This document shows positions 5,291-39,551 of a DNA stretch of 40,089 bases, one piece after another. The notes beneath the pieces were generated by a model. It was not told where the DNA came from. It worked only from the letters and a program-made list of their open reading frames with translations, and ran no database searches. Source of the stretch: Chitinophagales bacterium (GTDB lineage: Bacteria; Bacteroidota; Bacteroidia; Chitinophagales; UBA2359); NCBI GenBank assembly GCA_020629205.1, contig JAHDDV010000005.1, positions 1-40,089 on the forward strand, given 5' to 3'. The first letter of the stretch is position 1. Each line of letters starts with the position of its first letter. The translations under genes and the position numbers were made by a program.

Positions 5291-5492
5291 ACTTCCTTGG
5301 TTTTATGTTGAATATCCCAGGCTGGACCAAGTATTGCCAAAAATAGCAGAACAGCAGAGGATATGAATTTGCTTAATGGCCACATTATATGGCGCATACG
5401 CAAGATAGCGAAATTATTTTTAGGTTTATTGCTGTCAAATTCCGGTCCCAGAGTACTGGTACCTTGGGGCCCAATTGCTGGGTATTTTGCAT

Positions 5493-11177: not shown

Positions 11178-14100
11178 ATGAAAAAAGTTCTCACACTATT
11201 AAGCAATATTCTTGTTCTGTTATTTTTGGTCAATGCTGGCCTTATGGCAGATTGCAACTTCGGCGTCTTCGATGCAGGAGCAGATGCAAATGTTTGTGGT
11301 CTCACTGCCACATTACAAGCAGGTGTCCCTTACTATGGAAATGGTGAATGGGCTGGTCCCGGGGTGTTTTCAGATCCAAATTCCGGCACAACTTCAGTGA
11401 CGGTCGCCGATTATGGAGCACACCTATTTTCCTGGACAATTACCAACCCCGATTGTCCTCCTTTCACAGATTTTGTGACCGTGATTTTTGATCCTCCGCC
11501 TAGTGAGGCGAACGGGGGAGCTGATATCACCGTTTGTGGTCTCAGTACAGCCATGCATGGTTTCGCCCCTGCCATCGGATCTGGCGTTTGGTCAGGTACG
11601 GGCCTGGACTTTGCGAACATCTATGACCCAGGCAGTTTGGTCACTGCTCCCGCGCACGGTAACTATACAGCAGTGTGGACAACTAGCAATTGTGATTGTG
11701 AGTTAAGTACGGATGCAGTCAGCCTGACCTTCTTAGCTTCCCTAACTGTGGATGCGGGTCCCGATGCTGAAGTATGCGGATTATCACATAATCTCAACGC
11801 CAGCAGCTCTGGGTCAACTGGTTATTGGTCTGGCCCAGGAATATTTTCTGATATTAACAGCCCAAGCAGTACTGTAACTGTTGCAGGGCAAGGGACTTAT
11901 GTCTTCTACTGGAATGCCACCAATGATTGCGGCACAACGAGCGATGCGGTTACAGTGAGTTTTACACACTCGGGTAATTCAGCCTTTGCCGGTGCCGATG
12001 TAACTGTCCACAGTTTATCCTATACTTTAGGTGCTACATTGCCGGCAGGAACCACTGGAACCTGGTCTGGAAATGGCAACTTTGCAAATGTGAACGCTGC
12101 AAACACTGTTGTAACAGTTCCAGGGCCGGGAACATATGTGTTCACCTGGACGATCAATGATGGCTGCGCAAGTTCTTCGGATTCAGTTACAGTGACTTTT
12201 GACCCCTGTACAGTGGAAGTAAACGCTGGTGAAGACATTGAAACTTGCGGATTATCCACTTACCTGAGTGCTCAGGTAAACACTTCAGGGACGGGAACCT
12301 GGTCTGGTTCCGCTAATTTTAGCAATCCAAATGATCCAAATACCTATGTCTCTGTAGATACTTATGGAGCGTACAATTTGATATGGACTGTCAATGATCC
12401 GATTTGTGGTTTTGTTTCTGATAATGTTGTTGTTGTCTTTGGAGAAGCACCCACTAGTGCCAATGCGGGGCCGGATGACAATACCTGTTCATTGAGTTAC
12501 ATGTTGCAAGCTGAGACTCCGGCAGTGGGAGAGGGGCATTGGACAGGCCCAGGTGTATTTTCAGATGTGAGTGATCCAAATGCTACAGTTACAGTTGCCT
12601 CACCTGGCAATTACAGCTTCTATTGGACGGTCACAAATTGCACCTGTCCACCTGTGGATGATTATGTCAATATCTATTTTGGGACAGAGACCCCAACTTC
12701 TCAGGCAGGTCCCGCAGGACAGACTTGTGGGCTGGCCTATGTTCTATCTGCAAATGCTCCAGCCGCAGGTATGACCGGCACCTGGACTGGCAATGGTACA
12801 TTTAGCAATCCTACTGATCCCAATACGACCGTTTCCGTTGCTGGACCGGGTACCTACAATTTCACATGGACAGTAGACGCCGGGGTCTGTGGTACTGCCT
12901 CTTCAAGTACCTATGTAGAGTTTACACAAGCACCACAAAACAACGGTGCTGGATCTGACATGAACGTTTGCGGAAATAGTGTGGTACTATCTGCTACTGC
13001 AGTGGCTCCTGGCTTAGAAGGATATTGGTCAGGACCCGCAACATTTGAGGACCCTCTGAATCCTGGAACGGTGGCCACGGTCGCAGGACCCGGTACCTAT
13101 ACTTTTTACTGGACAGTGGCTAATTGCTGTTGTGCGCCAGTTTCGGACGCTGTAGTGGTGACATTTAGTAGTGCAGGTGCTCCACCTCATGCGGGTGATG
13201 ATGCCTCGGCTTGTGGATATACTTTTCAGCTAGCTGCTAATACACCAAGCACAGGCACAGGGCAGTGGACGGGAAATGGAGTATTCACAAATGCTTCGAG
13301 CCCGACCTCTCTTGTCACGGTAGCAAGTGCTGGTAATTATACTTTCAATTGGACCGTAAGTACAGATTGCGGAAGTCAAAGTGACGATGTACATGTTCTT
13401 TTCCTTGGAGATGCTCCAGCCGCTCATGCAGGAAGTGATGACAACATTTGTGGCTTGACCTATGGACTAAATGCACAGTCACCCGCAGCAGGTATAGGCT
13501 ATTGGACTGGCCCAGGGGTATTTTCTGATCCTAACAATCCAGCCTCGACGGTAACAGTACCAGCTATTGGAACTTACAACTTTGTGTGGACGACGATAGG
13601 AAATTCCGCTTGTCCCTCTAACAGTGATCAAGTGAGCATCACCTTTACACAAAATGATCCCGATGTTAATGCTGGGCCTGACGCAAGTTATTGCAATCAA
13701 CTAAGCCATGTGCTAGCCGCTTCTGCAGCATCGCAAGGTGTTGGGAGCTGGACTGGAAACGGTAGCTTTAGCAATGTCAATGATCCAAATGCTACAGTGA
13801 CCGTTAGTGGCTATGGTACCTACAATTTTACATGGACTGTGAGCAACGGGACTTGTGGATCTGCCTCCGATGTGATGCAGGTGGTTTTTGCTGAGCAGCC
13901 TACAACTGTAAATGCAGGACCTGATGGAAGTAGTTGTTCCCTCGTGTACAATTTGACAGCCAGCAATCCGATAGGTGGAACGGGACAATGGTCTGGCCCA
14001 GGAGTATTCTCAAATGCAAATAGCCCGAATACAAATGTTCAAGTGAGTGGTCCCGGAACTTACACCTTTACCTACACAGTGAGCAATAGTGTTTGTGCTC

Positions 14101-17100
14101 CTGTGGAAGATTACGTAAACGTGACCTTTACTTCAGCACCCGACCCAGCCATTGCTGGACCGGATGCTAGCTACTGTAGCTTGTCAGCGACTCTTGCTGC
14201 TGTTCCAGCTACAGGTGGATATTGGTCGGTCCCAGCTGGGATCAGTATTAGTAATATCAACGATGAAAATGCCGTCATTACAGCAAGTACAGCTGGAACC
14301 TATACACTTACCTGGGTCACTTCAAATGTATGCTATGACAATAGTGACCAAGTTGTGATAAGTCTCAATCAAGCGCCTGCCGTACCCTATGCCGGAGCAG
14401 ATGCTTCTGCGTGTGGACACACATATCAGCTTCAAGGAACTGGTTCCGGAACCTGGTTTGGAGATGGCGTCTTTAGCAATCCTAATGATGCTAACAGTAC
14501 CGTTACAGTAGCGGCTGCAGGAACCTATAGTTTTAACTGGATCAGCTCCAATGATTGTGGTTCTGCATCTGATCAAGTAGAGATTACTTTCATAGATGGC
14601 CCGAATCCGGTAAATGCTGGTCAGGATGTCTCGACCTGCACCTTGTCTTACAATCTAATTGCAACAGGGGGCTCAGGAGGAAATGGAAACTGGACAGGTA
14701 ATGGAACTTTCAGTAATGCGGGTTCACAAAGTAGTATCGTTACAGTCGCCGCTCCTGGAACATACACCTATACCTATACAAGTACCAACAACTGTGGTTC
14801 TACATCCGACTCCGTTACTGTCACTTTTGGAGAGGCTCCAGAGCAAGCACAGGCAGGAGAAGATTTTGCTATCTGCGGCTTGACGGCCCAATTAAATGGT
14901 ATTCTTCCAAGTGGAACAACCGGGTTCTGGACTGGAACAACTTCTATTGATAGTCCAACAAATGCAGCTACTTTGGTAACTGCCCCATCTCCTGGAACAT
15001 ATACCTATACATGGACAATAAGCAATGCTTGTGCAAGTACAAGTGATGCAGTAAGTGTGACATTCCTCGGTAGCGCGCCGGAAGTAAATGCAGGAACGGA
15101 TGCTTCGGTCTGTAGCCTTGACTACGTATTAGCTGCCTCCGGTGGCTCGGGATCTTGGTCTGGACCAGGAACTTTCACTGATGCCAATTCACCAAACAGT
15201 GCAGTTAGTGTAGCCGCTCCGGGCATTTATACATTTACCTGGACTGGTGATGATCAATGTGGCATTAATAGCGATGAGGTTACAATTACTTTCGGGCAAG
15301 CACCTGGTGCAGCGCAAGCTGGTGACGATTTCGCTATTTGCGGTTTGAATGCAACGATCAACGCCATATTGCCGGCCAATACTACTGGGAGCTGGACTGG
15401 TAGTACTGCTATCTCGAATCCGACTTCGAGTAGCACAAATGTAACTGCTCCAGGTCCTGGGACTTATACCTATACCTGGACAGTTAGTAACTCCTGCGGT
15501 AGTATGAGTGATGCGATTAATGTTACCTTCCTTGGTGATGCACCAGCAGTAAATGCTGGGACAGACGCAAGTATCTGCAGCTTGAGCTATACATTAGCCG
15601 CCTCAGGAGGTGCAGGATCCTGGTCAGGTGCTGGTGTCTTTAGTGATGCCTCTCTGCCGAATAGTTCTGTTACGGTGAGCACTCCTGGATCTTATACTTT
15701 TACCTGGACAGGAAACAGTCAATGTGGATCTTCAAGTGATCAGGTGACGATTACATTTGGTGAACCGCCAGCTCCTTCAAATGCGGGAGAAGACTTTGCC
15801 GTATGTGGCTTAAGTACTAACCTAAACGCTGTGCTTCCTGCAAATGGAACAGGTAGCTGGACAAATGGTCAAGGAATCAATAACCCGGGCTTGGCGAACT
15901 CTTTAGTGAACGTGCCAAGTGCAGGGACCTACACCTACACCTGGACCAATAGCAATAGTTGTGGCAGCAGTTCGGATCAAGTAAATGTTACCTTCCTTGG
16001 AACGCTGACAGCTAATGCTGGTCCCGATCAAAGTGTTTGTGGTCTGAACGCTAATCTTGCTGCGCTGGCTCCCAATACTGGTACTGGCTCCTGGTCTGGA
16101 CCGGGGCTGTTTGCTAATGCGAATTCAACGATTACAAATGTGTCCGTCATAAGCCCAGGTACCTATACGTTCTACTGGACGGTTAGCGGTCAATGTGGGA
16201 CAAGCAGTGATGAGGTGCAAGTGACTTTCTCTAATCAGGCAACCGCCAATGCGGGTCTGGATATGGAGGTTTGTGGACTAACACACAACCTATCTGCTTC
16301 TGGTGGTTCTGGATTTTGGTCGGGCAATGGAGTATTTGCAAATGCAAATAGTCAAAACACGACGGTGACCGTCTCAAACTACGGTACCTATGACTTTACC
16401 TGGACATCTGCCGGTGGATCTTGCGGGGACAGCTCCGATTCGGTGCAGATTATCTTTGGCGAACAACCTGTGTTTGTTGAGGCGGGTCCTGATGTGGATG
16501 TATGCGGCTTGAGCTATGTGATGTCCGCGGCTATTCCTACAGTAGGAGAAGGAACCTGGGTGGGACCAGGATTGTTTAGCGACCCGAGTCAAGCCAATGC
16601 GACGGTAACAGTTCCTTCAGCAGGTACATATACCTTCACGTGGGTAGTAGAAAACTGTGTATGTCCTATCATCAGTGATCAAGTAACGATCACCTTTGGT
16701 GGCACTGCTCCTACAGCCAATGCAGGACCTGATCAAACGCTTTGTAGCCTATCTACCGCACTAGGGGCAACGGGCAGTGGAACATGGTCTGGTAATGGAG
16801 TGTTTTCGAACCCAAACAATCCCAATAGTGCTGTTTCTGTGGCTGCAGCTGGGAACTACACATTTACCTGGACAAGTTCAAACGAGTGTGGCAGTTCTTC
16901 AGATCAGGTTTCCATAAACTTTAACAACGGCTCTGCTACAGCCAATGCCGGTCCGGATATTCAGGTTTGTGGTCTTTCAGGTCAAATGTCTGGGCTGCTG
17001 CCATCAGGTGCAACAGGTACTTGGTCAGGTACAGCGACCTTCGCAAACCCTGGTGATCCCAACTCCGTGATCTCTGTCGATCAACCTGGTATCTATCAGG

Positions 17101-20100
17101 TAGCCTGGAGTGTAACCGGTACTTGTGGCTCCGGTGTCGATTATGCGGTCGTTGAATTCGGTCTTCCACCAACGGTGGTTAATGCCGGTCCTGATGGCAC
17201 CACTTGTGGGCTGAACTACAACCTTTCTGCGGCTGTTCCGGATATTGGAATTGGCACTTGGCAAGGTCCTGGACTATTTGGGGATGCTAATGAGCCAGTT
17301 ACTACAGTTCAAGTTGCATCGCCTGGAACATATACCTTCACCTGGACAGTCAGCAATTGTAACTGTCCACTGGTAACAGACGAAGTGACCATTACATTTG
17401 GCGAGGGAGGTCTCATTGCTGATGCAGGTGCGGATCAAGATGCTTGTGGTTTGAGCGCTGCCTTAAGTGCCATCCTTCCTGCTGGTGCCACTGGACAATG
17501 GTCCGGGCCCGGCAGCTTCACCGATCCGGCAAATCCGAATTCAGTAGTGCAAGTAGCTGCGACGGGAACCCAGACATTTACATGGACAGTGACAAGTGAA
17601 TGTGGTTCTAGCAGCGATCAGGTCAATATCAACTTTGGGGGTAGTGCATCACCGGCAAATGCAGGGGTTGATCAGGAAGTCTGTGGATTAGGTACCAGTC
17701 TTAATGCCGTATTGCCTCCGGGAGCAACAGGGCAGTGGTCTGGGCCTGGAACATTTACTGATCCATCCAACCCTAACACAGTTGTTGCGGTGGCAGCAGC
17801 TGGAACCAGCACATTTACCTGGACAGTTAGCAGCGAATGTGGCTCCAGCAGTGATGAAGTTATGGTAAGCTTCGATGCGGGCTCCGTGAGCGCCAATGCA
17901 GGAACTGATCAATTTGTCTGTGGGCTAAGTTTTGCACTAAGTGCTGAGCAGCCTGCCGGGACCAGCGGTCAATGGACAGGTCCAGGAACCTTCACTGACG
18001 CTAACGACCCAAATACCATTGTACAAGTTGCAGCTGGTGGCCCCTCCATGTTTACATGGACGCTTACAAGTGATTGTGGCACTTCTAGTGATGCTGTAAC
18101 GATAACGTTTGGTGAAGATCCAGAACTAGCCTATGCAGGAGCTGATCAAAGTACCTGTGGCTTAGTGGCTTTGCTCAGCGGAACACCGCTAATGGGCGGT
18201 CAATGGACTGGCAATGGTAGCTTCTCAAATCCGAATGAAGGCAATACTTCTGTGACTGTAGTAGCACCTGGAGTTTATACCTTCACCTATACAGTAAGTA
18301 ATACCTGCGGTACTTCAAGTGATGAAGTGACAGTGACCTTTGAAGAGGGTGCAGATATTGCCAATGCCGGACCAGACCAATCTGTTTGTAGTCTTTCCAC
18401 GGTTATGGCGGCAACGGGTTCAGGTGTCTGGACTGGTGATGGAATCTTTGATAGCAATGACGCAAATGCCACAGTGACTGTTACGAGTCCAGGAACCTAT
18501 CTATTTACCTGGACAGCTTCTGATGATTGCGGTACTTCAAGTGATCAGGTGGAAGTGGTGTTTGGTCAATCACCTAGTCTTGCGGATGCTGGAGAAAACA
18601 TGCAGGTTTGTGGACTCAGTTATACACTTGATGGGAATCTGCCTGCGATTGGGGTAGGTACGTGGTCAGGAGCAGGGACTTTCAGTAATGCTAATCTTGC
18701 GAATAGTACGGTCACGGTAGAAGACTATGGTGATTACACTTTCAGTTGGGAAATAGAAAATGATTGTGGCTCAGACATGGACTTGGTTATCATTAGTTTC
18801 GTCGAAGGAGAAACGGCGAATGCAGGTACGGGTGGAGACATTTGTGGTCTGAGCTTTGATCTCAACGCGTCCGGTTCCGGTACCTGGACAGGTAACGGCA
18901 ACTTCGCCGATGCGAATAGTGCCAGCACCACTGTATCCGTTGTTGCCCCAGGAACGTATACCTTTACCTGGACGATCGATGGTGATTGTGCAGTGAATAG
19001 CTCCGCTAATGTATCCGTAACGTTTATTGAGGATACTGCCGCCGCGAATGCAGGCGCGGACAGTGCTACCTGTGGAGAGATTTATACTCTTTCGGCAAAT
19101 CCGGCTTTTGGAACATGGTCGGGTCCTGGAGAATTTGCGGATGCGAACGATCCGAATACCACTGTAACAGTTACCTCTTTTGGGCCTGCCACCTTTGTTT
19201 GGACGAGCAGCAGTGATTGTGGAACCTCTAGCGATGAGGTGGTCATCAATTTTAATGATCCAAACCCAACGACGGCAGCTGTAGGTGAAAACGAAACTAT
19301 TTGTGGATTGTCTTACCAATTGACTGGAAACGTTCCTAGTGTTGGAACGGGTACCTGGTCGGGTGCAGGAAGCTTCTCTGACGTTAATGATCCCGCTGCC
19401 ATAGTTACAGTACCGGAAACAGGCGATTATACATTTGCCTGGACGATAGAAAATGAATGTGATTCTTCGATGGATCTAATGATCATCTCCTTTGAAGAAG
19501 GATCAGCAACTGCTGATGCGGGTGAGGATGCTGCGGTTTGTGGCCTCTCACATACGCTTTCAGCTACGGCCGCGATCGGCGGTACATGGTCTGGAGATGC
19601 AGGAGTAGTCTTTACTGATGTAAATAATGCCTCTAGCAGTGTCACTGTTCCGGCTCCCGGTACATATACCTTTACATGGACTGTCGACAGTGATTGTGGT
19701 CAAGCCAGCGATATGGTAATGGTCGCCTTTGAAACGTCGCCAGCAGCAGACGCTGGCGCAGATGGCAGTACCTGCGGCTTGACTTATGATCTGAATGCAA
19801 TATATACCACGGAGGGTCAGTCTGGTACCTGGTCAGGCAATGGAATTTTTTCCGATGCGAATAGCGCAAACAGCAGTGTTACAGTAGTTGCTCCCGGTAC
19901 TTATACTTACACCTGGACAACTTCCGCAATCGGTGATTGTCCACAATCGTCTGATCAGGTGTCGGTGACATTTACTGAAGGCATTGCCGCGGATGCAGGG
20001 CCTGATGCGACCACTTGTGGTATTTTCCTTTACGCGCTCGAAGCGAGCTTGCCGGAAGGTGCTAGCGGAATGTGGTCAGGAGCTGGTACTTTTGCCAATG

Positions 20101-22643
20101 CCAGTGATCCGAACACAACGGTTGCTGTTCTTGATCCTGGTACTTTCACCTTTACCTGGACAGTGAGCGGTACTTCCTGTGGAGATGGCAGCGATGAAGT
20201 GGAGATCACTTACATCGAGCCCCTAAATGCCAATGCCGGTGCTGATGGGGTCAATTGTGATCTTGACTATGTGCTGAATGCATCGAATGCACCAGAAGGA
20301 GCGACTGGCTACTGGTCTGCCGTAGATGGTTTGAGCTTTAGCGCGATGGATGATCCTTCTGCCACGGTTACCGCAGCTGAAGCAGGGATTTATACTTTGA
20401 CCTGGAATCTGGAACAAGAAGGCTGCAACAGTGATACCGATCAGGTAGTGCTTGACCTTGGTGGATCTGATGCCATCACTGCGGATGCCGGACCTGATGA
20501 TCAACAATGCGGGTTGACTTTTGAATTGAGTGCTCAGCTAAATGCAAATGCCACGGGTTATTGGACAGGTATTGGTGAATTTGCCGATGCGAATAGTCCT
20601 ACTACAATGGTGACAGTGGGTGCATATGGAGTCTACATCTTCACTTGGCATGTAGCGTCTCCTTGTGGTACTTCGACGGATCAAGTACAGGTGGAGTTTG
20701 GGACACAACCTACTATAGTAAATGCTGGTCCGGATGACTCGGTTTGTGGTTTATCCTACACATTTCAGGCAGAGATTCCAGATGTAGGATTGGGCTTCTG
20801 GCTTGGCGAGGGAGAATTTAGCAGCACGGCAAATCCTGCAGCTACTGTTACAGTGCCAGATTATGGTACCTATACTTTTGTGTGGTCAGTTGAGAACTGC
20901 AATTGCCCTACGGTGTCAGATGAGATCGTCATTACTTTTGAAGACTGTGATCCAAACAACGACGTCGTGACGGCTGTTGATGATGACTACAGCACAGAGA
21001 TGAACACGGAGTTGATGATATCTCCAATGAACAATGATCTCAATCCAGGAGGTGGAGATCTCTTCTTTACGGCTGTTACGCAGCCAGCCAATGGAACGGT
21101 GGTGCCAGTTGATGATGCGCTGGTGTATCAGCCAGATGAGGGGTATACAGGAACAGATGTATTTACTTATACTGTTTGTAATTCAGAAGGAAGTTGTGAT
21201 ACCGCGATCGTGACCGTAGATATTGTATATACCCCAAGCGACTGCGAGTATGCCGGTGCTTTCTGTACAGAACCATTAACTCCAGTGACGATCTGTATAC
21301 TACCCTGCGAGGTATCTGGTGGATTTATCACAGACCTGACAACGACTTACAATTGTAGTTTGAGTGTTACTTCCGATATCTGTTTTACATACACACCGCT
21401 GCCAGAATATCTTGGCGAGGATCAAATAGTAATTTCCTATTGTGATGCTGATGGAAACTGTGAAACACATTATGCTGATATTTCCGTTGGGAACTGTGAG
21501 GGGACCGATCCGGATCCTAATAGCACACCTATCGCACAAGATGATTTAGGGTCAACTGTTAGTGAAGGCTCGATCACGATTTCGCCGCTTTCAAATGACA
21601 GTGATCCAGATGATGATGAGTTGACGATTGCTGCCGTTGGTGATGCCGCGAACGGAACGGTTGTTCAAGATGGGTATGATCTCATCTATACACCTGCAGC
21701 TGGCTTTACAGGTACGGACTTTTTTGGTTATACTGTTTGTGATCCGGAAGGAGCTTGCGCTACAGCCATTGTAAGCATTACAGTTGTCGGAGGAGAGGGG
21801 AATAATCCTCCGTTTGCCCAGGAAGATGCGGTTTCTATTTTACAAAACGAGATTGCAGGTGTTGATGTATTGACAAATGATTCGGACCCAGACGGAGATA
21901 GTTTCTTTATCAGTAGCTATACTCAACCATCAAATGGAAATGTTGTCCAAGGAGGCAGTACTTTATTGTACACGCCAAATACAGATTATGTAGGAACGGA
22001 CATGTTTACATACGAAATCTGTGATACAGAAGGTAACTGTACTTTTGGGACGGTAAATGTTACGATCACAGCTGATGTGGCTTGCGACAATCCTGCCATT
22101 TGTACAGAGCCTATCACGCCGACAGAGGTGTGCGCTAATTTCTGCACCATCGACAATTCAGATGTGACAATTCAAGACGTTCATACACTATTTGATTGCA
22201 GTATCAATCTGCTAGGAGGAACATGTGTGCAATATACTGGTTTACCTGCCTTCATTGGAGAGGAAGAGTTAGAGATCACGGGTTGTGATTCAGACGGAAA
22301 CTGTGAGACAGTCGTGGTTATTGTAAATGTGGTGGAGGATTGTGACAATCTTGAAGAGGGTAAGAGTCCTGAAGGAGAGTCTCTCATGATTCCGAACTTC
22401 TTCTCGCCCAATGGGGATGGATTCAATGATTACTGGCTGGTTGATAATCTGCCTGAGGAAGATGATCTATATGTACGGGTATTCGACCTGAATGGAAGAA
22501 TGCTAATGGAAGAACAAATCTGGGGGATTTTACTTTGGGACGGTAGAGTAGGGGGCATTACGCTTAATAGCGGAATGTATGCTTACACGCTAGGTAATGG
22601 GAAAAATGTGCATTACAGCGGTCTCCTAAGTATCGGACGATAG
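11178..22643 (+). CDS. Giant repetitive T9SS-secreted adhesin-like protein (3,821 aa)
   Basis: A signal peptide (MKKVLTLLSNILVLLFLVNA-GLMA, cleavage before D25) is followed by 41 tandem Ig/PKD-like repeats averaging 79 residues (about 25-3254). Each follows the scheme AGxDxxxCGLxxxL...GxWxGxGxF...TVxVxxxGTYTFxWTxxxxCGxxSDxVxxxF. Three tandem-95/cadherin-like domains then alternate with two nine-cysteine modules (residues about 3356-3440 and 3636-3722). The end (about 3735-3821) has IPNFFSPNGDGFNDYW and VFDLNGRM, the gliding-motility-associated (CHU_C/type B) T9SS sorting domain. Most repeats carry two cysteines at positions expected for a B-F strand disulfide. Scanning the translation I found no Lys or Arg between residues 3 and 3729, so the mature protein is extremely acidic. 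By family knowledge such proteins are cell-surface adhesins or matrix fibres; the ligand is unknown. A strong terminator follows at 22664. No similar gene is adjacent. Confidence 0.95.
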   Translation: MKKVLTLLSNILVLLFLVNAGLMADCNFGVFDAGADANVCGLTATLQAGVPYYGNGEWAGPGVFSDPNSGTTSVTVADYGAHLFSWTITNPDCPPFTDFVTVIFDPPPSEANGGADITVCGLSTAMHGFAPAIGSGVWSGTGLDFANIYDPGSLVTAPAHGNYTAVWTTSNCDCELSTDAVSLTFLASLTVDAGPDAEVCGLSHNLNASSSGSTGYWSGPGIFSDINSPSSTVTVAGQGTYVFYWNATNDCGTTSDAVTVSFTHSGNSAFAGADVTVHSLSYTLGATLPAGTTGTWSGNGNFANVNAANTVVTVPGPGTYVFTWTINDGCASSSDSVTVTFDPCTVEVNAGEDIETCGLSTYLSAQVNTSGTGTWSGSANFSNPNDPNTYVSVDTYGAYNLIWTVNDPICGFVSDNVVVVFGEAPTSANAGPDDNTCSLSYMLQAETPAVGEGHWTGPGVFSDVSDPNATVTVASPGNYSFYWTVTNCTCPPVDDYVNIYFGTETPTSQAGPAGQTCGLAYVLSANAPAAGMTGTWTGNGTFSNPTDPNTTVSVAGPGTYNFTWTVDAGVCGTASSSTYVEFTQAPQNNGAGSDMNVCGNSVVLSATAVAPGLEGYWSGPATFEDPLNPGTVATVAGPGTYTFYWTVANCCCAPVSDAVVVTFSSAGAPPHAGDDASACGYTFQLAANTPSTGTGQWTGNGVFTNASSPTSLVTVASAGNYTFNWTVSTDCGSQSDDVHVLFLGDAPAAHAGSDDNICGLTYGLNAQSPAAGIGYWTGPGVFSDPNNPASTVTVPAIGTYNFVWTTIGNSACPSNSDQVSITFTQNDPDVNAGPDASYCNQLSHVLAASAASQGVGSWTGNGSFSNVNDPNATVTVSGYGTYNFTWTVSNGTCGSASDVMQVVFAEQPTTVNAGPDGSSCSLVYNLTASNPIGGTGQWSGPGVFSNANSPNTNVQVSGPGTYTFTYTVSNSVCAPVEDYVNVTFTSAPDPAIAGPDASYCSLSATLAAVPATGGYWSVPAGISISNINDENAVITASTAGTYTLTWVTSNVCYDNSDQVVISLNQAPAVPYAGADASACGHTYQLQGTGSGTWFGDGVFSNPNDANSTVTVAAAGTYSFNWISSNDCGSASDQVEITFIDGPNPVNAGQDVSTCTLSYNLIATGGSGGNGNWTGNGTFSNAGSQSSIVTVAAPGTYTYTYTSTNNCGSTSDSVTVTFGEAPEQAQAGEDFAICGLTAQLNGILPSGTTGFWTGTTSIDSPTNAATLVTAPSPGTYTYTWTISNACASTSDAVSVTFLGSAPEVNAGTDASVCSLDYVLAASGGSGSWSGPGTFTDANSPNSAVSVAAPGIYTFTWTGDDQCGINSDEVTITFGQAPGAAQAGDDFAICGLNATINAILPANTTGSWTGSTAISNPTSSSTNVTAPGPGTYTYTWTVSNSCGSMSDAINVTFLGDAPAVNAGTDASICSLSYTLAASGGAGSWSGAGVFSDASLPNSSVTVSTPGSYTFTWTGNSQCGSSSDQVTITFGEPPAPSNAGEDFAVCGLSTNLNAVLPANGTGSWTNGQGINNPGLANSLVNVPSAGTYTYTWTNSNSCGSSSDQVNVTFLGTLTANAGPDQSVCGLNANLAALAPNTGTGSWSGPGLFANANSTITNVSVISPGTYTFYWTVSGQCGTSSDEVQVTFSNQATANAGLDMEVCGLTHNLSASGGSGFWSGNGVFANANSQNTTVTVSNYGTYDFTWTSAGGSCGDSSDSVQIIFGEQPVFVEAGPDVDVCGLSYVMSAAIPTVGEGTWVGPGLFSDPSQANATVTVPSAGTYTFTWVVENCVCPIISDQVTITFGGTAPTANAGPDQTLCSLSTALGATGSGTWSGNGVFSNPNNPNSAVSVAAAGNYTFTWTSSNECGSSSDQVSINFNNGSATANAGPDIQVCGLSGQMSGLLPSGATGTWSGTATFANPGDPNSVISVDQPGIYQVAWSVTGTCGSGVDYAVVEFGLPPTVVNAGPDGTTCGLNYNLSAAVPDIGIGTWQGPGLFGDANEPVTTVQVASPGTYTFTWTVSNCNCPLVTDEVTITFGEGGLIADAGADQDACGLSAALSAILPAGATGQWSGPGSFTDPANPNSVVQVAATGTQTFTWTVTSECGSSSDQVNINFGGSASPANAGVDQEVCGLGTSLNAVLPPGATGQWSGPGTFTDPSNPNTVVAVAAAGTSTFTWTVSSECGSSSDEVMVSFDAGSVSANAGTDQFVCGLSFALSAEQPAGTSGQWTGPGTFTDANDPNTIVQVAAGGPSMFTWTLTSDCGTSSDAVTITFGEDPELAYAGADQSTCGLVALLSGTPLMGGQWTGNGSFSNPNEGNTSVTVVAPGVYTFTYTVSNTCGTSSDEVTVTFEEGADIANAGPDQSVCSLSTVMAATGSGVWTGDGIFDSNDANATVTVTSPGTYLFTWTASDDCGTSSDQVEVVFGQSPSLADAGENMQVCGLSYTLDGNLPAIGVGTWSGAGTFSNANLANSTVTVEDYGDYTFSWEIENDCGSDMDLVIISFVEGETANAGTGGDICGLSFDLNASGSGTWTGNGNFADANSASTTVSVVAPGTYTFTWTIDGDCAVNSSANVSVTFIEDTAAANAGADSATCGEIYTLSANPAFGTWSGPGEFADANDPNTTVTVTSFGPATFVWTSSSDCGTSSDEVVINFNDPNPTTAAVGENETICGLSYQLTGNVPSVGTGTWSGAGSFSDVNDPAAIVTVPETGDYTFAWTIENECDSSMDLMIISFEEGSATADAGEDAAVCGLSHTLSATAAIGGTWSGDAGVVFTDVNNASSSVTVPAPGTYTFTWTVDSDCGQASDMVMVAFETSPAADAGADGSTCGLTYDLNAIYTTEGQSGTWSGNGIFSDANSANSSVTVVAPGTYTYTWTTSAIGDCPQSSDQVSVTFTEGIAADAGPDATTCGIFLYALEASLPEGASGMWSGAGTFANASDPNTTVAVLDPGTFTFTWTVSGTSCGDGSDEVEITYIEPLNANAGADGVNCDLDYVLNASNAPEGATGYWSAVDGLSFSAMDDPSATVTAAEAGIYTLTWNLEQEGCNSDTDQVVLDLGGSDAITADAGPDDQQCGLTFELSAQLNANATGYWTGIGEFADANSPTTMVTVGAYGVYIFTWHVASPCGTSTDQVQVEFGTQPTIVNAGPDDSVCGLSYTFQAEIPDVGLGFWLGEGEFSSTANPAATVTVPDYGTYTFVWSVENCNCPTVSDEIVITFEDCDPNNDVVTAVDDDYSTEMNTELMISPMNNDLNPGGGDLFFTAVTQPANGTVVPVDDALVYQPDEGYTGTDVFTYTVCNSEGSCDTAIVTVDIVYTPSDCEYAGAFCTEPLTPVTICILPCEVSGGFITDLTTTYNCSLSVTSDICFTYTPLPEYLGEDQIVISYCDADGNCETHYADISVGNCEGTDPDPNSTPIAQDDLGSTVSEGSITISPLSNDSDPDDDELTIAAVGDAANGTVVQDGYDLIYTPAAGFTGTDFFGYTVCDPEGACATAIVSITVVGGEGNNPPFAQEDAVSILQNEIAGVDVLTNDSDPDGDSFFISSYTQPSNGNVVQGGSTLLYTPNTDYVGTDMFTYEICDTEGNCTFGTVNVTITADVACDNPAICTEPITPTEVCANFCTIDNSDVTIQDVHTLFDCSINLLGGTCVQYTGLPAFIGEEELEITGCDSDGNCETVVVIVNVVEDCDNLEEGKSPEGESLMIPNFFSPNGDGFNDYWLVDNLPEEDDLYVRVFDLNGRMLMEEQIWGILLWDGRVGGITLNSGMYAYTLGNGKNVHYSGLLSIGR
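14859..16018 (+). repeat. Two-domain higher-order repeat, period 465 nt
   Basis: The marker (E/D)DFA(I/V)CGL begins at 14859, 15324 and 15789, spaced exactly 465 nt (155 residues) each time. Repeats 16 and 18 resemble each other, as do 17 and 19 (NAGTDAS(V/I)CSL, AASGG(S/A)GSWSG). A two-domain unit was therefore duplicated as a block. Repeat 20 starts a third copy that then diverges. Confidence 0.8.
17418..18128 (+). repeat. Three near-identical domain repeats, period exactly 237 nt
   Basis: Repeats 27, 28 and 29 begin at 17418, 17655 and 17892, and the next unit at 18129, all 237 nt (79 residues) apart. They share AGxDQxxCGL, GQW(S/T)GPG(S/T)FTD, NPN and TFTWT with few differences. This is the most recently homogenised-looking single-domain block in the array. 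Confidence 0.8.
21243..21497 (+). other. Nine-cysteine module, copy 1 (inside the giant protein)
   Basis: Residues 3356-3440 have cysteine spacing C-x6-C-x9-C-x3-C-x15-C-x8-C-x19-C-x5-C-x10-C, with CTEPLTP near the start and CDADGNCET near the end. It is duplicated at 22083-22343 and lies between tandem-95-like domains. I do not recognise it as a named domain. Confidence 0.75.
22083..22343 (+). other. Nine-cysteine module, copy 2 (inside the giant protein)
   Basis: Residues 3636-3722 repeat the cysteine order of the module at 21243, with CTEPITP and CDSDGNCET in matching places. It precedes the sorting domain. The nine cysteines imply four internal disulfides plus one that is free or intermolecular, if all are conserved for pairing. 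Confidence 0.75.
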
Positions 22644-22940: not shown

Positions 22941-24386
22941 CTAAAAAATTTCCGCTTCTTTTTTTGCGAGAAGGCGCTCTTGTTCCACTGTATTTAAGTA
23001 TGCTTTTGAGCCTTCGATAGGATATTTACCGGAGAAGCAAGCCATGCAATAATGTCCGTTGTACAACTGAATCATGTCTTCCAGTGATTGGTAGATGACG
23101 GCATCTGCATTCATGAATTTTCGAATTTCTTCCAGGTCTTTACTAGCCGCTATCAGCTCTGTACTGATGGCCATATCGATTCCGTATACGCATGGATGTT
23201 TGATCGGCGGGGCGGCCGATATGAAATAGACTTCAGTGGCACCGGCATCTCTAATGATCTGGACAATGCGCTGGGAAGTGGTTCCCCTCACGATAGAATC
23301 ATCAACAACTGCCACCTTCTTGCCTGCTACAACATCTCGAATGGGATTCAGTTTATGTCGCACCATTTTCTCGCGCTGCTCTTGTGTGGGAGCAATAAAA
23401 CTTCGACCGACATGGTTGTTTTTGACGAGTCCACGACGATAAGGAACCTGCAGCTCTTCAGCCATTGCTGAGGCAAAGAAGTAGGCAGATGAAGGGACAT
23501 CGATCACGATATCAGGCTGAAGGCCACTGGTTTTGACCTTTCGCGCGAGCATCTTGCCCATCTTTACACGCTCGCTAGCAACTAGCTTTTTATGAAGTAC
23601 GGAATCTTCTCTGGCGAAGTAAATGTATTCAAATATGCAAAATTTTCTATCACTTGTTCTGCAATCTTTAACGTGCATCTTGCCTTCAGTGTCGATGAAG
23701 ACAGCCTGTCCAGGTTCGAGATCACAAAGTAGTTCATAGCCTAGATAGTCGAAGCAGGTGCTTTCAGAGGAGAAGCCATATGTGATTCCTTTTTCTGTGG
23801 TCTTTTGTCCTAGCAAGAGCGGTCGAATGCCGTTAGGATCGGAGAAGGCGAGCAGACCGTGATTAGCGATGAGTGCGATGGAGGAGTAAGCCCCTTTCAC
23901 TTTCTCCTGCAGCGAGATGACTGCATTGAAGATGTCGGCTACTTTCAGCTTTTTTAGGTCTTTGCTATTCGCTAATTCAGTAGCGAAGGTATAGAGAATG
24001 AGTTCGAGGTCATTGGAAGTTTGGGGAAGTATATGGTAATCTTCGTAAAGGCTTTTTCGGAGTTGGTTGAAGTTGATGATATTGCCGTTGTGTACCATGG
24101 ATATACCGAAGGGATAAGTCACAGAAAAGGGCTGCGCATTGACCAGTTCATTGGAGCCTTGAGTGGTGTATCGTACATGCCCTAGCCCCATGTTTCCCTT
24201 CAGTCGTTTGAGGTGTTTGGATTCAAAAACATTGTTGACTAAGCCGAGCCCTTTCTTTGTGTGAAAGTTGTTTTCGAAAGTAGTGATACCAGCCGCATCC
24301 TGACCACGATGTTGCAGGGCCGTGAGGCCGGATACCAGATCATAGACGACTTTTTGATTTCCTGCAAATCCAAGAATTCCACACAT
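22941..24386 (-). CDS. purF: Amidophosphoribosyltransferase
   Basis: This enzyme catalyses the first committed step of purine synthesis, PRPP plus glutamine to phosphoribosylamine. It has 481 residues. The N-terminal nucleophile Cys2 is directly after the start Met (MCGILGF), so no propeptide needs removal beyond Met. The glutaminase half has LQHRGQDAAG, GHVRYTT and MVHNGNI. The phosphoribosyltransferase half has the PRPP loop VVDDSIVRGTTS. Cysteines in KFCIFEYIYFAR, KHPCVYGIDM and HYCMAC match the four [4Fe-4S] ligand positions known in the Bacillus-type enzyme, so an iron-sulfur cluster is predicted. It is the last gene of the pur operon, 12 bp after purN. A divergent palindromic repeat follows it. 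Confidence 0.97.
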   Translation of the reverse strand: MCGILGFAGNQKVVYDLVSGLTALQHRGQDAAGITTFENNFHTKKGLGLVNNVFESKHLKRLKGNMGLGHVRYTTQGSNELVNAQPFSVTYPFGISMVHNGNIINFNQLRKSLYEDYHILPQTSNDLELILYTFATELANSKDLKKLKVADIFNAVISLQEKVKGAYSSIALIANHGLLAFSDPNGIRPLLLGQKTTEKGITYGFSSESTCFDYLGYELLCDLEPGQAVFIDTEGKMHVKDCRTSDRKFCIFEYIYFAREDSVLHKKLVASERVKMGKMLARKVKTSGLQPDIVIDVPSSAYFFASAMAEELQVPYRRGLVKNNHVGRSFIAPTQEQREKMVRHKLNPIRDVVAGKKVAVVDDSIVRGTTSQRIVQIIRDAGATEVYFISAAPPIKHPCVYGIDMAISTELIAASKDLEEIRKFMNADAVIYQSLEDMIQLYNGHYCMACFSGKYPIEGSKAYLNTVEQERLLAKKEAEIF

Positions 24387-24398
24387 GTTGTTTGGGGT

Positions 24399-24977
24399 TT
24401 ATGCCTTGTTTTTAAAAAGCTGATAGAGTACTTCAGAATAGAATTTGTGTTCAACTTCCAGCCCACGTTTTACGACTTCTTGTAAGTTTTCTGCCCTTCT
24501 TAGGTCGACCTTTCTTTTGTCCAAGACCTTACCAGTGTCTACACCCTTGTCGACCAGATGTACTGTGATGTAGGTGTGATCTAGTTTGTTTTCGTGTGCC
24601 CATTCGTAGGCTCCAAGACCTTTGAAGGCTTGCGTGTCTGCCGGGTGAATGTTGATAATTCGGTTCGGGAATTTCTTGAGAAAAGGTTCAGAAATAATGC
24701 GCATATAGCCAGCCAGAACAATGTAGTCGAGATTGAGAGGCTCCAGCTTATCAATGATCTGTTGGTCAAAGGATTCGCGGGAACTCCCCTTGCTCTTGAT
24801 CCACATAGTATTCAGTCCGAGATTAGCTGCTGCCTTCAATCCTGCTGCCTTGGGCGTATTGCTAAAAACGACTACAATTTCGCAAACATCGCCAAGCGCT
24901 CCATCCTCGCATTGTTTGGCGATGGCAAGCATGTTGCTGCCCCGACCGGAGATGAAGATGGCAATACGTTTTTTCAT
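24399..24977 (-). CDS. purN: Phosphoribosylglycinamide formyltransferase
   Basis: This enzyme transfers a formyl group from 10-formyl-tetrahydrofolate to GAR, the third step of purine synthesis. It has 192 residues, normal for PurN. It starts MKKRIAIFISGRGSNML; the catalytic region has Asn and His in IINIHP and Asp in VDKGVDTGKVL. The usual NIHPSLLPAFKG appears here as HPADTQAFKG, a local deviation that keeps the key residues. It sits between purD (8-bp gap) and purF (12-bp gap) in the pur operon. Confidence 0.94.
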   Translation of the reverse strand: MKKRIAIFISGRGSNMLAIAKQCEDGALGDVCEIVVVFSNTPKAAGLKAAANLGLNTMWIKSKGSSRESFDQQIIDKLEPLNLDYIVLAGYMRIISEPFLKKFPNRIINIHPADTQAFKGLGAYEWAHENKLDHTYITVHLVDKGVDTGKVLDKRKVDLRRAENLQEVVKRGLEVEHKFYSEVLYQLFKNKA

Positions 24978-24985
24978 TAGCGATG

Positions 24986-26260
24986 CTATGATTGGATAGG
25001 GAGAACGTTTCTACGTAATCCGATGTCCTTTCTGTAAGTTTTGTTTTCAAACTGAATCTTGTCCACTTCGGAATAGACCTTTTGGATGGCCGATTCCAGC
25101 GTCTTCGCATGTGCCACCACATTGAGTACCCTTCCACCATTCGTGCTAATTGTACCCTTATCTCTTTGTGTTCCGGCATGAAAAATCATAGAACCATGAT
25201 CGAGATTTTCGGAAACGAGGATCGGAAACCCTTTTTCATATTTGTATGGGTATCCGCTTGAAACGAGCACCACGTCTACAAAGTAACCATCGTGAAAGTC
25301 GAGTTTAATTTGCGACAGCGTCTCGTTCAGGCAAGCTTGTATAAGCTCGTATAGATCAGATTTCAAGGCAGGCAGAATGACTTCAGTTTCTGGGTCACCC
25401 AATCGTACATTGTATTCAAGAAGCCTGGGACCCTCTTCGGTTATCATGATGCCAAAGTACAGTATACCCTTGTATGTTATTTGTTCTTTTACTAATCCAA
25501 ACATAGTTGGGTTGATGATGTCGCGGTAAATTTTACGCAACTGCTCAATGCCCAGAAAGGGGAGAGGACAGAAGGCCCCCATGCCGCCGGTATTAGGTCC
25601 TTTATCGTCTTCCAGAAGTTGTTTGTGATCTTGGGAGGGGGACAAGATTCGTATATGTTGTCCATCTGTAAACCCTATGATGGAGAGTTCGACTCCTTGT
25701 AATCTGCGCTCAATTAGGAAGGGGAATTCGCTTCCATGAATGGCTTCTAATTCTGAGAGTGCTTCGAATGCTTGTCGATGTGTCTTGCATACGTAGACTC
25801 CTTTCCCTCCGGCCAGTCCATCGTATTTGATGACTAATTTACCATCGAGTAGCTTGATGCATTCTGTAGCTTGGTCGATATGCGAGAAGCTCCAGAACTC
25901 AGCGGTTTTTACCTTGTTGCGTTGCATGAATTCCTTGGCGAAAGTCTTCGAGCCTTCTAATTGGGCAGCAAACATATTGGGTCCGAAGACTTGAATTTCA
26001 GTGCCTTCGAAGTAGTTGACAATACCTTCTGTCAAAGGTAATTCAGGCCCCACTACAATTAGCTCTATGCTTTGTTTTTTGCAAAAGGATTTGATGGCGG
26101 GGAAGTCGAGCAAATCGAGATCAACATTGTGGTCCGTGCCGCCATTGCCAGGGGCCACAAATACTTTTGCAACCAAAGGAGATTGCTCAAGCTTCCAGGC
26201 AATTGCGTGCTCTCGTCCTCCCGAACCCAAAACGAGAATCTTAGCTTTGTTGCTCTGCAT
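24986..26260 (-). CDS. purD: Phosphoribosylamine-glycine ligase
   Basis: This ATP-grasp enzyme joins phosphoribosylamine and glycine to form GAR, the second purine step. It has 424 residues. It starts with VLGSGGREHAIAWKL and GNGGT, and has VVGPELPLTEGIV, the ATP-grasp segment KYDGLAGGKGVYVC, GPNTGGMGAFCP and the metal-binding region LEYNVRLGDPETEVILP. Its first 20 nt overlap the end of purB (26241-26260), suggesting coupled translation. purN follows after 8 bp. Confidence 0.97.
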   Translation of the reverse strand: MQSNKAKILVLGSGGREHAIAWKLEQSPLVAKVFVAPGNGGTDHNVDLDLLDFPAIKSFCKKQSIELIVVGPELPLTEGIVNYFEGTEIQVFGPNMFAAQLEGSKTFAKEFMQRNKVKTAEFWSFSHIDQATECIKLLDGKLVIKYDGLAGGKGVYVCKTHRQAFEALSELEAIHGSEFPFLIERRLQGVELSIIGFTDGQHIRILSPSQDHKQLLEDDKGPNTGGMGAFCPLPFLGIEQLRKIYRDIINPTMFGLVKEQITYKGILYFGIMITEEGPRLLEYNVRLGDPETEVILPALKSDLYELIQACLNETLSQIKLDFHDGYFVDVVLVSSGYPYKYEKGFPILVSENLDHGSMIFHAGTQRDKGTISTNGGRVLNVVAHAKTLESAIQKVYSEVDKIQFENKTYRKDIGLRRNVLPIQS

Positions 26261-31198: not shown

Positions 31199-31228
31199 GT
31201 GTCACGTACTTTGTTTCTGCAGCACTAG
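31199..31228. repeat. CTAG-bounded element, single arm (copy C)
   Basis: The stretch cacgtactttgttt-ct-gcagcactag matches the right outer arm of copy A (3127-3151) except for two bases. Only one arm is present; the inner arm and core are replaced by unrelated sequence and the dnaK terminator. The CTAG (31225-31228) contains the TAG stop codon of dnaK, exactly as copy A does for gldH. Confidence 0.7.
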
Positions 31229-36686: not shown

Positions 36687-39551
36687 CTACTGCTTAAGAA
36701 CCACTTGACTGATGTAGTTCTCGCCGTCGTGGATGTTTAGCAGGTAAGAGCCTTGACTCATACCTTGCATGTCCAAAGTCACTTTGCTCGGGCCAGCTTG
36801 AACTTCCATAGCTTGCTCAATCATCACTCGACCTGTTAGATCATAGAGTACTATTGTCACTTCTGAAGCGGTTGCACTTGTGAACGATAGCTCGGTCATG
36901 TCTGTGACCGGCATTGGAGCAACGTAATTCAAAGTCAGCTGCAGAGCTCCCCTATGGATCACTACGGTGTTTGACATCTTCATTCGTCCTTCATCATCGC
37001 TTTGCAGCAATCTGTAGTAGAAGGTTCCAGCTCCTAGCCCATCATCCGAGTATTGGTAATGTGCAAATGCAGCACTACCTGGTTGCACCTCAGTAATGGT
37101 GCTGAACTGTTCCCCATTCATTGATTTCTGAACGATGTAAGCCTGATCATTTCCATTACCAGTAAAGCTTAGAAGATTTCCCGTTTCCATCAGTTGACCA
37201 ACCAGCTCCAAGTCTGTACTAAAGCCACCATTGAAGATTTTACCATCTGGATCATCGCACATCACTTCGATTGTCTGTGTGTATGCTTTACACCAAGCAT
37301 CATCCAAACCATAGACACTTAGAATCTCTCCTTCTGCCAACTGCATCCCGTTAGGAACAGGGTATCCTGTTTCTGAGTTGTAGAAGGCCATATCTCCTGT
37401 TCCACCTAATTGTGCCAATTGTAGTGTAGCTGTGCCGGTGGGGTTCCCGTCTACGTCTGTATCACAAACGTAGTTAATCGAGAAAGCAGCTGGGTTAGCC
37501 TCGCAAGGAATTGGACAATTGACCTCGATGGTTTGGGTCAGTGCCTTACACCAGTTCTCATCCAAAGCGTACACATGAAGAATATCACCGTGATTAAGGG
37601 TAATGCCATTCAGCACGGGATAGCCAGTTTCAGAATTGTAATAAGTCAAATCGCCAGTCCCTGCAACTTTGGACAGGTTTACTGTTGCCGTTCCTGCATT
37701 ATAGCCATTTGCGTCAAGGTGGCAATTGTATGATATGTCAAATGCTGCAGGAGCTTCATCACAATTGTCCTGTGGAGCTTCACAGGCAACAGCAATCGTA
37801 CGTGGAGCTGATGTACATCCTTGCTCATCTCGTGCGTATATGGTGAAGGTGTCTCCACTTGCAGCAGCCGTGCCACTTACAATTGAATTGTTATCCATGT
37901 CGAAGTAAGACAAGGTGCCGTTCCCGGAAATCTTCTCCAGATATATGGTTGCTTCACCAGTAAGATCGCCTTCACCATCTGTTAGACAAATATGACTGGC
38001 ATTAAAGTCTACAGGATTGAAAATACATGGGTCGGTAACCGTTCCCTCGCAAGCCACAGTAATGGTTTGAGTCAGGGCTTTACACCAAGCTTCATCAAGT
38101 CCATATACATTCACCACTTGTCCATTAGTCAATGTCATTCCGTTCGGCACAGGATATCCCGTTTCAGAATTGTAATAGGTCATTATACCAGTTCCGCTCA
38201 ACTGCTCCAAAACTAGCGTTGCTGTCCCGGTGAGTTGGCCATCAGCGTTTACATCACAGTTGTAGGAGATAGCAAATGACGAGGGGTTTCCGTTACAAGG
38301 CACTTCACAATCCACTGAAATCGTCTGTGTAAGAGCTTTACATCCATTTTCGTCAAGTGCGTATACAGATTGAATTGTTCCATCGGCCAGAGCCATGCCA
38401 TCGTGCACAGGATAGCCGGTAACCGAATCATAGTAATTCAAAGTACCTGCTCCGGATACCTTTGATAGGTGTAGAGTCGCAACACCTGTATTGAAACCCT
38501 CTGCACCTTCCTGACATGTGTAGGAAATGTTGAAGGCAGCAGGAGCGGCATCACATGGATCGCCGTCCACTGGTCCACCGCCTGTTGGTGGTGTACAGTT
38601 TACAGACATCAGTAAGACATCAGATTGGCAGTTTGAAGCATCAATTGCATAGACAGCCAAATTCTGACCGGTAGAAATAGACATTCCATGACTCAATTGC
38701 ATGCCTGTCAATTCATCGTAGTAGTTCAACTCGCCGTTGCCTCCCAACTGCTGTAAGGAAAGGGTCGCTGCTCCAGTGAAGCTTCCGTCTGCATCCAAAT
38801 CACAGAAATACAACATATCAAAGTCCGGTGGATTCAATGCGCATGGGTTATTGTCAACACAAGCAACATTGATGGTTTGAGTCAAAGCCTTACAGCCAGC
38901 CTCATCCAGTGCATATACATGATACTCATTACCATTGCTAAGCTGCATTCCATTCTGTACCGGGTAGCCCGTTAGGGAATTATAGTAAGTCAAAGTTCCG
39001 GTTCCGCTTAGCTGATTCAAGACGAGACTAGCTGTCCCATCGGCTGCGGCATTGCAATCATAGCTAATGCTAAATGATGCTGGTGCTGCCTCACAGGGAG
39101 TAGGGCAAAATACTTCTATACTTTGTGAGAATGCTTTACAGCCCAACTCATCTAAACCATAAACTGACAAAGCGTCTCCATGACTCATTGTCAATCCATC
39201 CTGAACTGGATAACCTGTTTGGGAATTGTAAAATGCCATGGCTCCATTGGAATTGGTAACCTGCAGATTTAGTGTTGCAGTCCCGCTGTTGAAACCAGCT
39301 GTATTTACATGACAGTCGTAGGAAATATTGAAACTTGGTGGATTATCCTCACAAGGATCTTCTACACCAGAGACAAATGAAAATTCCTCAGACGTTTTTT
39401 GCTGAGGGTTGCTTTGGGCTGAAACAGTAGTCTTATGTTTCTTTTTCTTTTTGAACCATTTGCCAAACTTAAAGTTGACACCGATACCAAGACCTATTAT
39501 AGCCACAGCACCTCCTAAAAGCAATAGACCTAAGTAATGAATGAGTTTCAT
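36687..39551 (-). CDS. T9SS cargo protein with eight four-cysteine repeats (954 aa)
   Basis: The N-terminus has a hydrophobic segment (about 5-25) followed not by a cleavage site but by KFGKWFKKKKKHK, so it may stay anchored or use an atypical signal. Residues about 65-765 hold eight repeats of about 87 residues. Typical features are PC-x2-xP-x2-F-x-I-S-Y-x-C, TATLxLxQLSGTGxxxYYNSxTGYPVxNGM, (V)YxLDExxCKALTQTI and a final C. After a linker the C-terminus (about 885-954) is a type A T9SS sorting domain (PMPVTDMTELSF, LYDLTGRVM, GSYLLNI, QVVLKQ). Export through the outer membrane and surface attachment or release are expected from the family. No enzymatic domain is seen. Repeats 3 and 6 deviate most, lacking TGYPV. 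Confidence 0.92.
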   Translation of the reverse strand: MKLIHYLGLLLLGGAVAIIGLGIGVNFKFGKWFKKKKKHKTTVSAQSNPQQKTSEEFSFVSGVEDPCEDNPPSFNISYDCHVNTAGFNSGTATLNLQVTNSNGAMAFYNSQTGYPVQDGLTMSHGDALSVYGLDELGCKAFSQSIEVFCPTPCEAAPASFSISYDCNAAADGTASLVLNQLSGTGTLTYYNSLTGYPVQNGMQLSNGNEYHVYALDEAGCKALTQTINVACVDNNPCALNPPDFDMLYFCDLDADGSFTGAATLSLQQLGGNGELNYYDELTGMQLSHGMSISTGQNLAVYAIDASNCQSDVLLMSVNCTPPTGGGPVDGDPCDAAPAAFNISYTCQEGAEGFNTGVATLHLSKVSGAGTLNYYDSVTGYPVHDGMALADGTIQSVYALDENGCKALTQTISVDCEVPCNGNPSSFAISYNCDVNADGQLTGTATLVLEQLSGTGIMTYYNSETGYPVPNGMTLTNGQVVNVYGLDEAWCKALTQTITVACEGTVTDPCIFNPVDFNASHICLTDGEGDLTGEATIYLEKISGNGTLSYFDMDNNSIVSGTAAASGDTFTIYARDEQGCTSAPRTIAVACEAPQDNCDEAPAAFDISYNCHLDANGYNAGTATVNLSKVAGTGDLTYYNSETGYPVLNGITLNHGDILHVYALDENWCKALTQTIEVNCPIPCEANPAAFSINYVCDTDVDGNPTGTATLQLAQLGGTGDMAFYNSETGYPVPNGMQLAEGEILSVYGLDDAWCKAYTQTIEVMCDDPDGKIFNGGFSTDLELVGQLMETGNLLSFTGNGNDQAYIVQKSMNGEQFSTITEVQPGSAAFAHYQYSDDGLGAGTFYYRLLQSDDEGRMKMSNTVVIHRGALQLTLNYVAPMPVTDMTELSFTSATASEVTIVLYDLTGRVMIEQAMEVQAGPSKVTLDMQGMSQGSYLLNIHDGENYISQVVLKQ
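37256..39359 (-). repeat. Eight tandem 87-residue repeats in the 954-aa protein
   Basis: Eight units of about 263 bp occur in tandem. Repeats 1, 2, 4, 5, 7 and 8 share the Y(N/D)SxTGYPV box. Repeats 3 (LTGMQLSHG) and 6 (MDNNSIVSG) are diverged, giving an order of two alike, one different, two alike, one different, two alike. Each unit has four cysteines. Confidence 0.85.

Follow-up and report, generated by a model that had tools for sequence, protein, structure and literature searches.

A predicted T9SS surface protein with 3,725 consecutive residues free of lysine and arginine

A single gene in the window, the 40,089-nucleotide stretch of Chitinophagales DNA analysed here, encodes a 3,821-aa protein in which 3,725 consecutive residues include neither lysine nor arginine. 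Substitutions relative to an orthologue show that selection keeps this core free of both residues, and as a class the genome's long structural T9SS cargo is depleted in the two (hereafter K+R). We infer that the likeliest cause is an exclusion of positive charge that prevents non-specific cross-linking of a many-copy fibre, with a probability of roughly 0.4.

Extent and anatomy of the lysine- and arginine-free run

Only four lysines and four arginines were counted in the translation (K2, K3, K3729, R3767, R3774, R3790, K3809 and R3821). A reading of the sequence alone, which we refer to as the sequence-only reading, had placed an uninterrupted run between the signal peptide and the sorting domain, and the count reproduced its limits exactly, with no Lys or Arg codon inside (Table 1). 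At the K+R rate of cytosolic proteins of this genome (12.3%), such a run would arise by chance with a probability of about 10^-212; with the genome's other giant type-B cargo as the baseline, whose own rate is very low, the probability is still about 10^-7.6. Alternative frames across the ORF encode 5.6–16% K+R, so the DNA is not short of Lys and Arg codons, and 13.2% of one-step missense mutations in the ORF would produce one of the two residues. The run is neither a reading-frame nor a base-composition artefact.

Table 1 Features of the giant protein and of one neighbouring gene in the window
Feature	Position	Strand	Basis
Gene of the 3,821-aa T9SS type-B surface protein (predicted)	11178..22643	+	Single ATG-started ORF; sorting domain above curated cut-offs
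Signal peptide, residues 1–25 (boundary approximate), contains K2 and K3	11178..11252	+	MKK, then hydrophobic core
Lys/Arg-free stretch, residues 4–3728 (3,725 aa)	11187..22361	+	Direct count
About 41 PKD-like beta-sandwich repeats of 74–81 aa, residues 26–3254	11253..20939	+	Repeat split, alignment
Big_9/tandem-95 repeats alternating with Cys-rich domains, residues 3255–3735	20940..22382	+	Pfam Big_9
T9SS type-B C-terminal sorting domain, residues 3736–3821, ordinary K/R content	22383..22640	+	Profiles (see text), counts
954-aa T9SS type-A cargo, neighbour	36687..39551	-	TIGR04183, 34.8 bits

The protein has a predicted pI of 4.05. The extreme acidity anticipated by the sequence-only reading therefore stands insofar as the protein is acidic, but its cause is absent positive charge, not added negative charge: D+E amounts to 9.9%, compared with 12.8% in cytosolic proteins. 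Halophile-like acid enrichment was rejected on the same count. The resistance to trypsin-like proteases that had also been proposed is borne out as far as the sequence goes, with zero trypsin sites across the run.

From its domains, the protein is predicted to be T9SS type-B cargo that is secreted and anchored at the surface. A Sec signal peptide was recognised by inspection of the N terminus, the type-B sorting domain scored 43.7 bits with TIGR04131 (cut-off 35) and 39.8 bits with CHU_C (cut-off 27), and the SprA family of the T9SS translocon is present in the genome, in pieces on several contigs. The PKD-like repeats share a mean pairwise identity of 44%, with two nearly invariant cysteines and one invariant tryptophan. 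An AlphaFold2 model of two repeats is all beta (pLDDT 95), and Foldseek matched this model to Ig tandems; a K319L-like PKD profile reached 198 bits over the whole protein, with no single stretch passing alone. Pfam Big_9 scored 165 bits (cut-off 23.6) in three stretches, and the tandem-95 profile NF012211 scored 84 bits, under its curated cut-off of 90. Although non-homologous to the PKD-like repeats, this second region likewise contains no Lys or Arg up to residue 3728, according to segment counts. A search of PHROGs gave no match.

The sole PDB sequence match was GhpA, the grappling hook protein A of Aureispira sp. CCB-QB1 (PDB 9flp, 9fly and others; E = 4e-75, best stretch GhpA 4495–5297), which is also a T9SS-secreted giant. 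For the modelled PKD-like repeats, the best fold match was the GhpA base (residues 4151–5009, E = 4.8e-11, 31% identity). The hook is a heptamer of this 5,898-aa protein and attaches to prey flagella (review, PMC11205867). The likeness to the shorter protein studied here is one of homologous repeat domains, and we file the latter as a GhpA-related T9SS type-B PKD-like fibre, not as a grappling hook. The 844 residues of GhpA that can be read from the alignments, a part of its chain, hold one lysine and eight arginines (1.1%). SprB and other T9SS type-B gliding adhesins share the type-B sorting domain and the giant multi-repeat surface build; a Pfam profile search for the SprB repeat (PF13573) found no match in the 3,821-aa protein.

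Beside the giant gene, at 22941–27647 on the minus strand, lie purine genes (purF-like, phosphoribosylglycinamide synthetase and adenylosuccinate lyase), and an Hsp70 (DnaK-type) gene is located at 31225–33147.

Substitutions relative to the orthologue

We compared the core with its orthologue from the same genus (L148, G070 record), which is syntenic and 67.9% identical. This single pair underlies the test, as L148 and L238 are one orthologue, not two, and the expected substitutions were derived from BLOSUM62, which serves as a yardstick and not as a fitted model. Among 1,198 core substitutions, two involved a gain of Lys or Arg, compared with approximately 130 expected; mutational opportunity (13.2%) would predict approximately 158. 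Per residue, the observed and expected numbers were 1/72 for Lys, 1/57 for Arg and 5/28 for His. By contrast, the controls stood at expectation: the gene's own sorting-domain segment showed four Lys or Arg for 3.1 expected, and two neighbouring genes six for 6.4. Drift, founder effect and mutation bias thus cannot give the pattern, and selection, which the sequence-only reading had regarded as implied, is now evident in the substitutions themselves.

That reading had named a biased repeat origin as the other option. An ancestral repeat that by chance lacked Lys and Arg and was then copied would account for the 41 homologous repeats, all of which lack both residues. We give such a founder effect next to no chance: the repeats have diverged to the low mean identity given above, the run extends into the Cys-rich and Big_9 domains, which are not homologous to these repeats, depletion also occurs in unrelated cargo, and the orthologue comparison refutes it. 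G+C or codon bias was rejected as well, given the ordinary K+R of the other frames and a G+C content of the depleted loci that ranges from 37 to 67%.

Depletion across T9SS cargo and lineages

To place the protein among the cargo of its own genome, we used a sample of 80 stretches with 387 ORFs, picked mainly around T9SS sorting domains and supplemented with unselected large-contig stretches; the sampled regions are therefore biased towards T9SS cargo. ORFs, signal peptides and sorting domains in this sample were called by simple patterns, and many cargo ORFs are truncated in the 579-contig draft. The draft spans 5.8 Mb and its T9SS cargo set is very large: sorting domains of type B number about 50, and those of type A at least 150.

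Type-B cargo of at least 1,500 aa averaged 0.47% K+R, set against the 12.3% of cytosolic proteins. The mature parts contained 0.22% Lys and 0.25% Arg, those of type-A cargo 0.56% and 0.47%, and cytosolic proteins 7.2% and 5.1%, respectively. Relative to the cytosol, Lys was down 32-fold in giant type-B cargo, Arg 20-fold, His 5-fold and Met 3-fold. Further long runs without Lys or Arg were found in L077 (3,359 aa), L082 (2,682 aa), L105 (2,503 aa), L092 (2,103 aa) and L116 (2,073 aa), and the mature part of a 668-aa structural cargo protein (L083) contains neither residue. The depleted proteins include PKD-like, Ig_7 and Big_9 types, plus proteins with no Pfam domain except the sorting domain. 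Type-B sorting domains keep 3.3% Lys and 4.4% Arg, and the change from the depleted part is abrupt, some 100 residues before the C terminus; in type-A sorting domains, lysines have been reported to be necessary for secretion (PMC10202324).

The sequence-only reading had taken the 954-aa neighbour as a contrast and concluded that the composition was not general to this organism's cargo. Neither point survived: the neighbour is itself depleted (1.85% K+R in its mature part), as are dozens of other T9SS cargo proteins of the genome. That related repeat proteins might have the same composition for trivial reasons, as it had also considered, is correct only in that the composition is partly shared; the reasons are not trivial, as the depletion spans unrelated families and G+C contents.

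The clear exception is the type-B cargo protein at L108:223-3720 (minus strand), which has SdrD_B and Big_9 domains and retains 8.1% K+R, whereas the Big_9 protein L092 has 0.04%. Neither fold nor T9SS route therefore forces depletion, and a fold requirement was rejected. At L067:1065-9467 (plus strand), a 2,801-aa C25 peptidase combines both states on one chain: its first ~600 aa contain ~7% K+R and its long tail 0–1%, and Lys and Arg reappear at the sorting domain. This argues that the stalk, not the route, is selected. A collagen-like protein with a signal peptide at L133:9032-12151 (plus strand), which ends at the edge of the stretch examined, has 0.8% K+R.

Relatives were collected with a query alignment of four two-repeat rows. 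Giant proteins of Chitinophagales (L148–L150), Saprospiraceae (L155) and Flavobacteriales (L152–L153) contained 0.3–0.9% K+R, and giant cargo in further genomes of the window's family 0.05–2.3%. In other families, the ranges were 0.1–2.1% (f7 and f8), 1.5–3.1% (f3) and 1.1–6.5% (f2), and giant type-B cargo sampled in f6 was depleted only to 1.2–5.8%. The trend is thus extreme inside the family and milder in several others; examples from Hymenobacter and Aquimarina, each under 1,200 aa, were not depleted. Two T9SS cargo proteins have hardly any charged residues at all, namely L181 (G041:C14:1-9000; K+R 0.1%, D+E about 2.5%) and L166 (G017:C9:216500-228000; K+R 1.1%, D+E 2.3%).

Candidate causes of the depletion

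The 3,821-aa protein stands at the extreme of a genome-wide rule, by which purifying selection clears positive side chains from T9SS repeat stalks, Lys and Arg almost fully and His partly, and exempts sorting domains, signal peptides and cytosolic, periplasmic and outer-membrane proteins. The target of this selection is probably the stalk once it is in place on the cell exterior, and not its transit. Under the exclusion of positive charge that we favour, a stalk with only neutral and negative side chains would not cross-link to neighbouring stalks, anionic lipopolysaccharide or nucleic acid, and a many-copy stalk of this kind would leave adhesion to dedicated domains.

Several observations agree with this proposal. 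Lys and Arg fall together and His falls less, which is the order expected from charge, and when all 20 amino acids are compared, their enrichment in giant type-B cargo over the cytosol correlates with positive charge at r = -0.91. Acidic residues need not rise, as L181 and L166 illustrate. Selection is ongoing at the level of single substitutions, the depletion crosses unrelated domain families and the full G+C range, and short structural cargo such as L083 can be free of both residues too. Among the exempt proteins, SprA and part of TamB each contain 10.1% K+R.

The same amino acid comparison bears on economy, whereby proteins lost to the outside would avoid costly residues, Lys, Arg, His and Met being costly among replaceable surface residues. 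The concurrent drop of Met and His is in keeping with this; however, biosynthetic cost correlates with enrichment at only r = -0.19 (r = -0.28, p = 0.28, without Lys, Arg and His), His is costlier than Lys yet less avoided, Trp is doubled in the 3,821-aa protein, and Thr and Pro are up. Side-chain nitrogen had no effect once Lys, Arg and His were excluded and Asn is enriched, and nitrogen saving was rejected on these grounds. We regard economy as very improbable.

A cost of transit has more in its favour. Positive charges might delay or block a chain in Sec or in the T9SS channel of the outer membrane, a burden that long, abundant cargo would escape by shedding them. In vitro, Arg limits the rate of Sec transport (PMC9110029), and K+R declines with length in type-A (rho = -0.82) and type-B cargo (rho = -0.34), compared with +0.03 for cytosolic proteins. 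However, signal-peptide proteins of 100–600 aa without a recognised T9SS tail retain 9–10% K+R, SprA and TamB keep their normal content, and the 668-aa L083 protein is already free of both residues. T9SS cargo can also be rich in both residues, as in L108 and towards the N terminus of L067, and in E. coli the giant Ig-like adhesin YeeJ, which is exported by Sec, has 6.6% K+R. Lys is not retained in preference to Arg (ratio 1.05 versus 1.41 in the cytosol), contrary to what the Sec model expects. Sec transit is an insufficient cause, and we consider a transit cost as a whole improbable. The Arg-poor Sec substrates (Allen et al. 2022, PMC9110029) are a further case in which selection acts on positive charge in exported proteins, but there the effect is mild and Lys replaces Arg; here the two residues disappear side by side, and do so in T9SS cargo alone. 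Lysine deserts are also long, conserved Lys-free stretches, but they concern Lys only, in proteins of ubiquitin or Pup degradation pathways, and Arg is not lost in parallel (PMC10665810); here, Arg is lost along with Lys, the proteins concerned are exported, and the 3,821-aa protein itself carries export signals.

The main rival is protease proofing, in which a single K/R-directed cut would sever a long fibre, the threat being the organism's own C25 (gingipain-family) enzymes or trypsin-like enzymes of the habitat. This would explain why Lys and Arg are lost together while aromatic and acidic residues remain, and a cost at every site would explain their total absence. Genomes of the window's family also contain 4–11 C25 genes, compared with 1–4 in the other genomes sampled. 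However, residual Lys and Arg are not enriched before Pro (3.5% versus 5.8% background), His is avoided too, the secreted peptidases themselves hold 4–7% K+R, and the depleted genomes G041 and G045 have only one and two C25 genes. In an alignment of L207 with gingipain R, the catalytic Cys and His match, and the specificity position, which we take to be Asp at position 163 in gingipain R, does not look like Asp, although the alignment is weak. Protease proofing is somewhat unlikely, if less so than a transit cost. C25 peptidases are expanded here, with nine in the window's genome (G000; C38, C65, C169, C88, C3, C78, C481 and C548; L206–L213) and 11 in its congener. At L140:288-2027 (minus strand), this Chitinophagales-like genome also encodes a peptidyl-arginine deiminase domain of the Porphyromonas type (PAD_porph, 145 bits).

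The exclusion of positive charge has difficulties of its own. Total absence of Lys and Arg exceeds what a net-charge argument alone needs, the avoidance of His and the loss of Met may reflect the general composition of surface beta-proteins, and L108 shows that the rule has exceptions. Some other cause retains a small chance, on a par with economy. In the open-licence papers of PubMed Central, we found no description of giant adhesins free of Lys and Arg.

It is possible, and we put it forward tentatively, that many Bacteroidota bar positive charge from their structural T9SS cargo, so that strong selection at each site, acting through an undescribed mechanism, holds large parts of the surface proteome, hook-formers included, free of Lys and Arg and thus largely invisible to trypsin-based proteomics. 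Proteins of this kind, which include some of the largest that these bacteria make, would yield almost no tryptic peptides and be missed by standard proteomics. What began as one odd protein becomes a measurable rule for the cargo of a secretion system. As this rule has built-in controls in the sorting domain, catalytic parts, cytosolic neighbours and exceptions, the question of what excludes positive charge from the cell exterior can now be put to the test.
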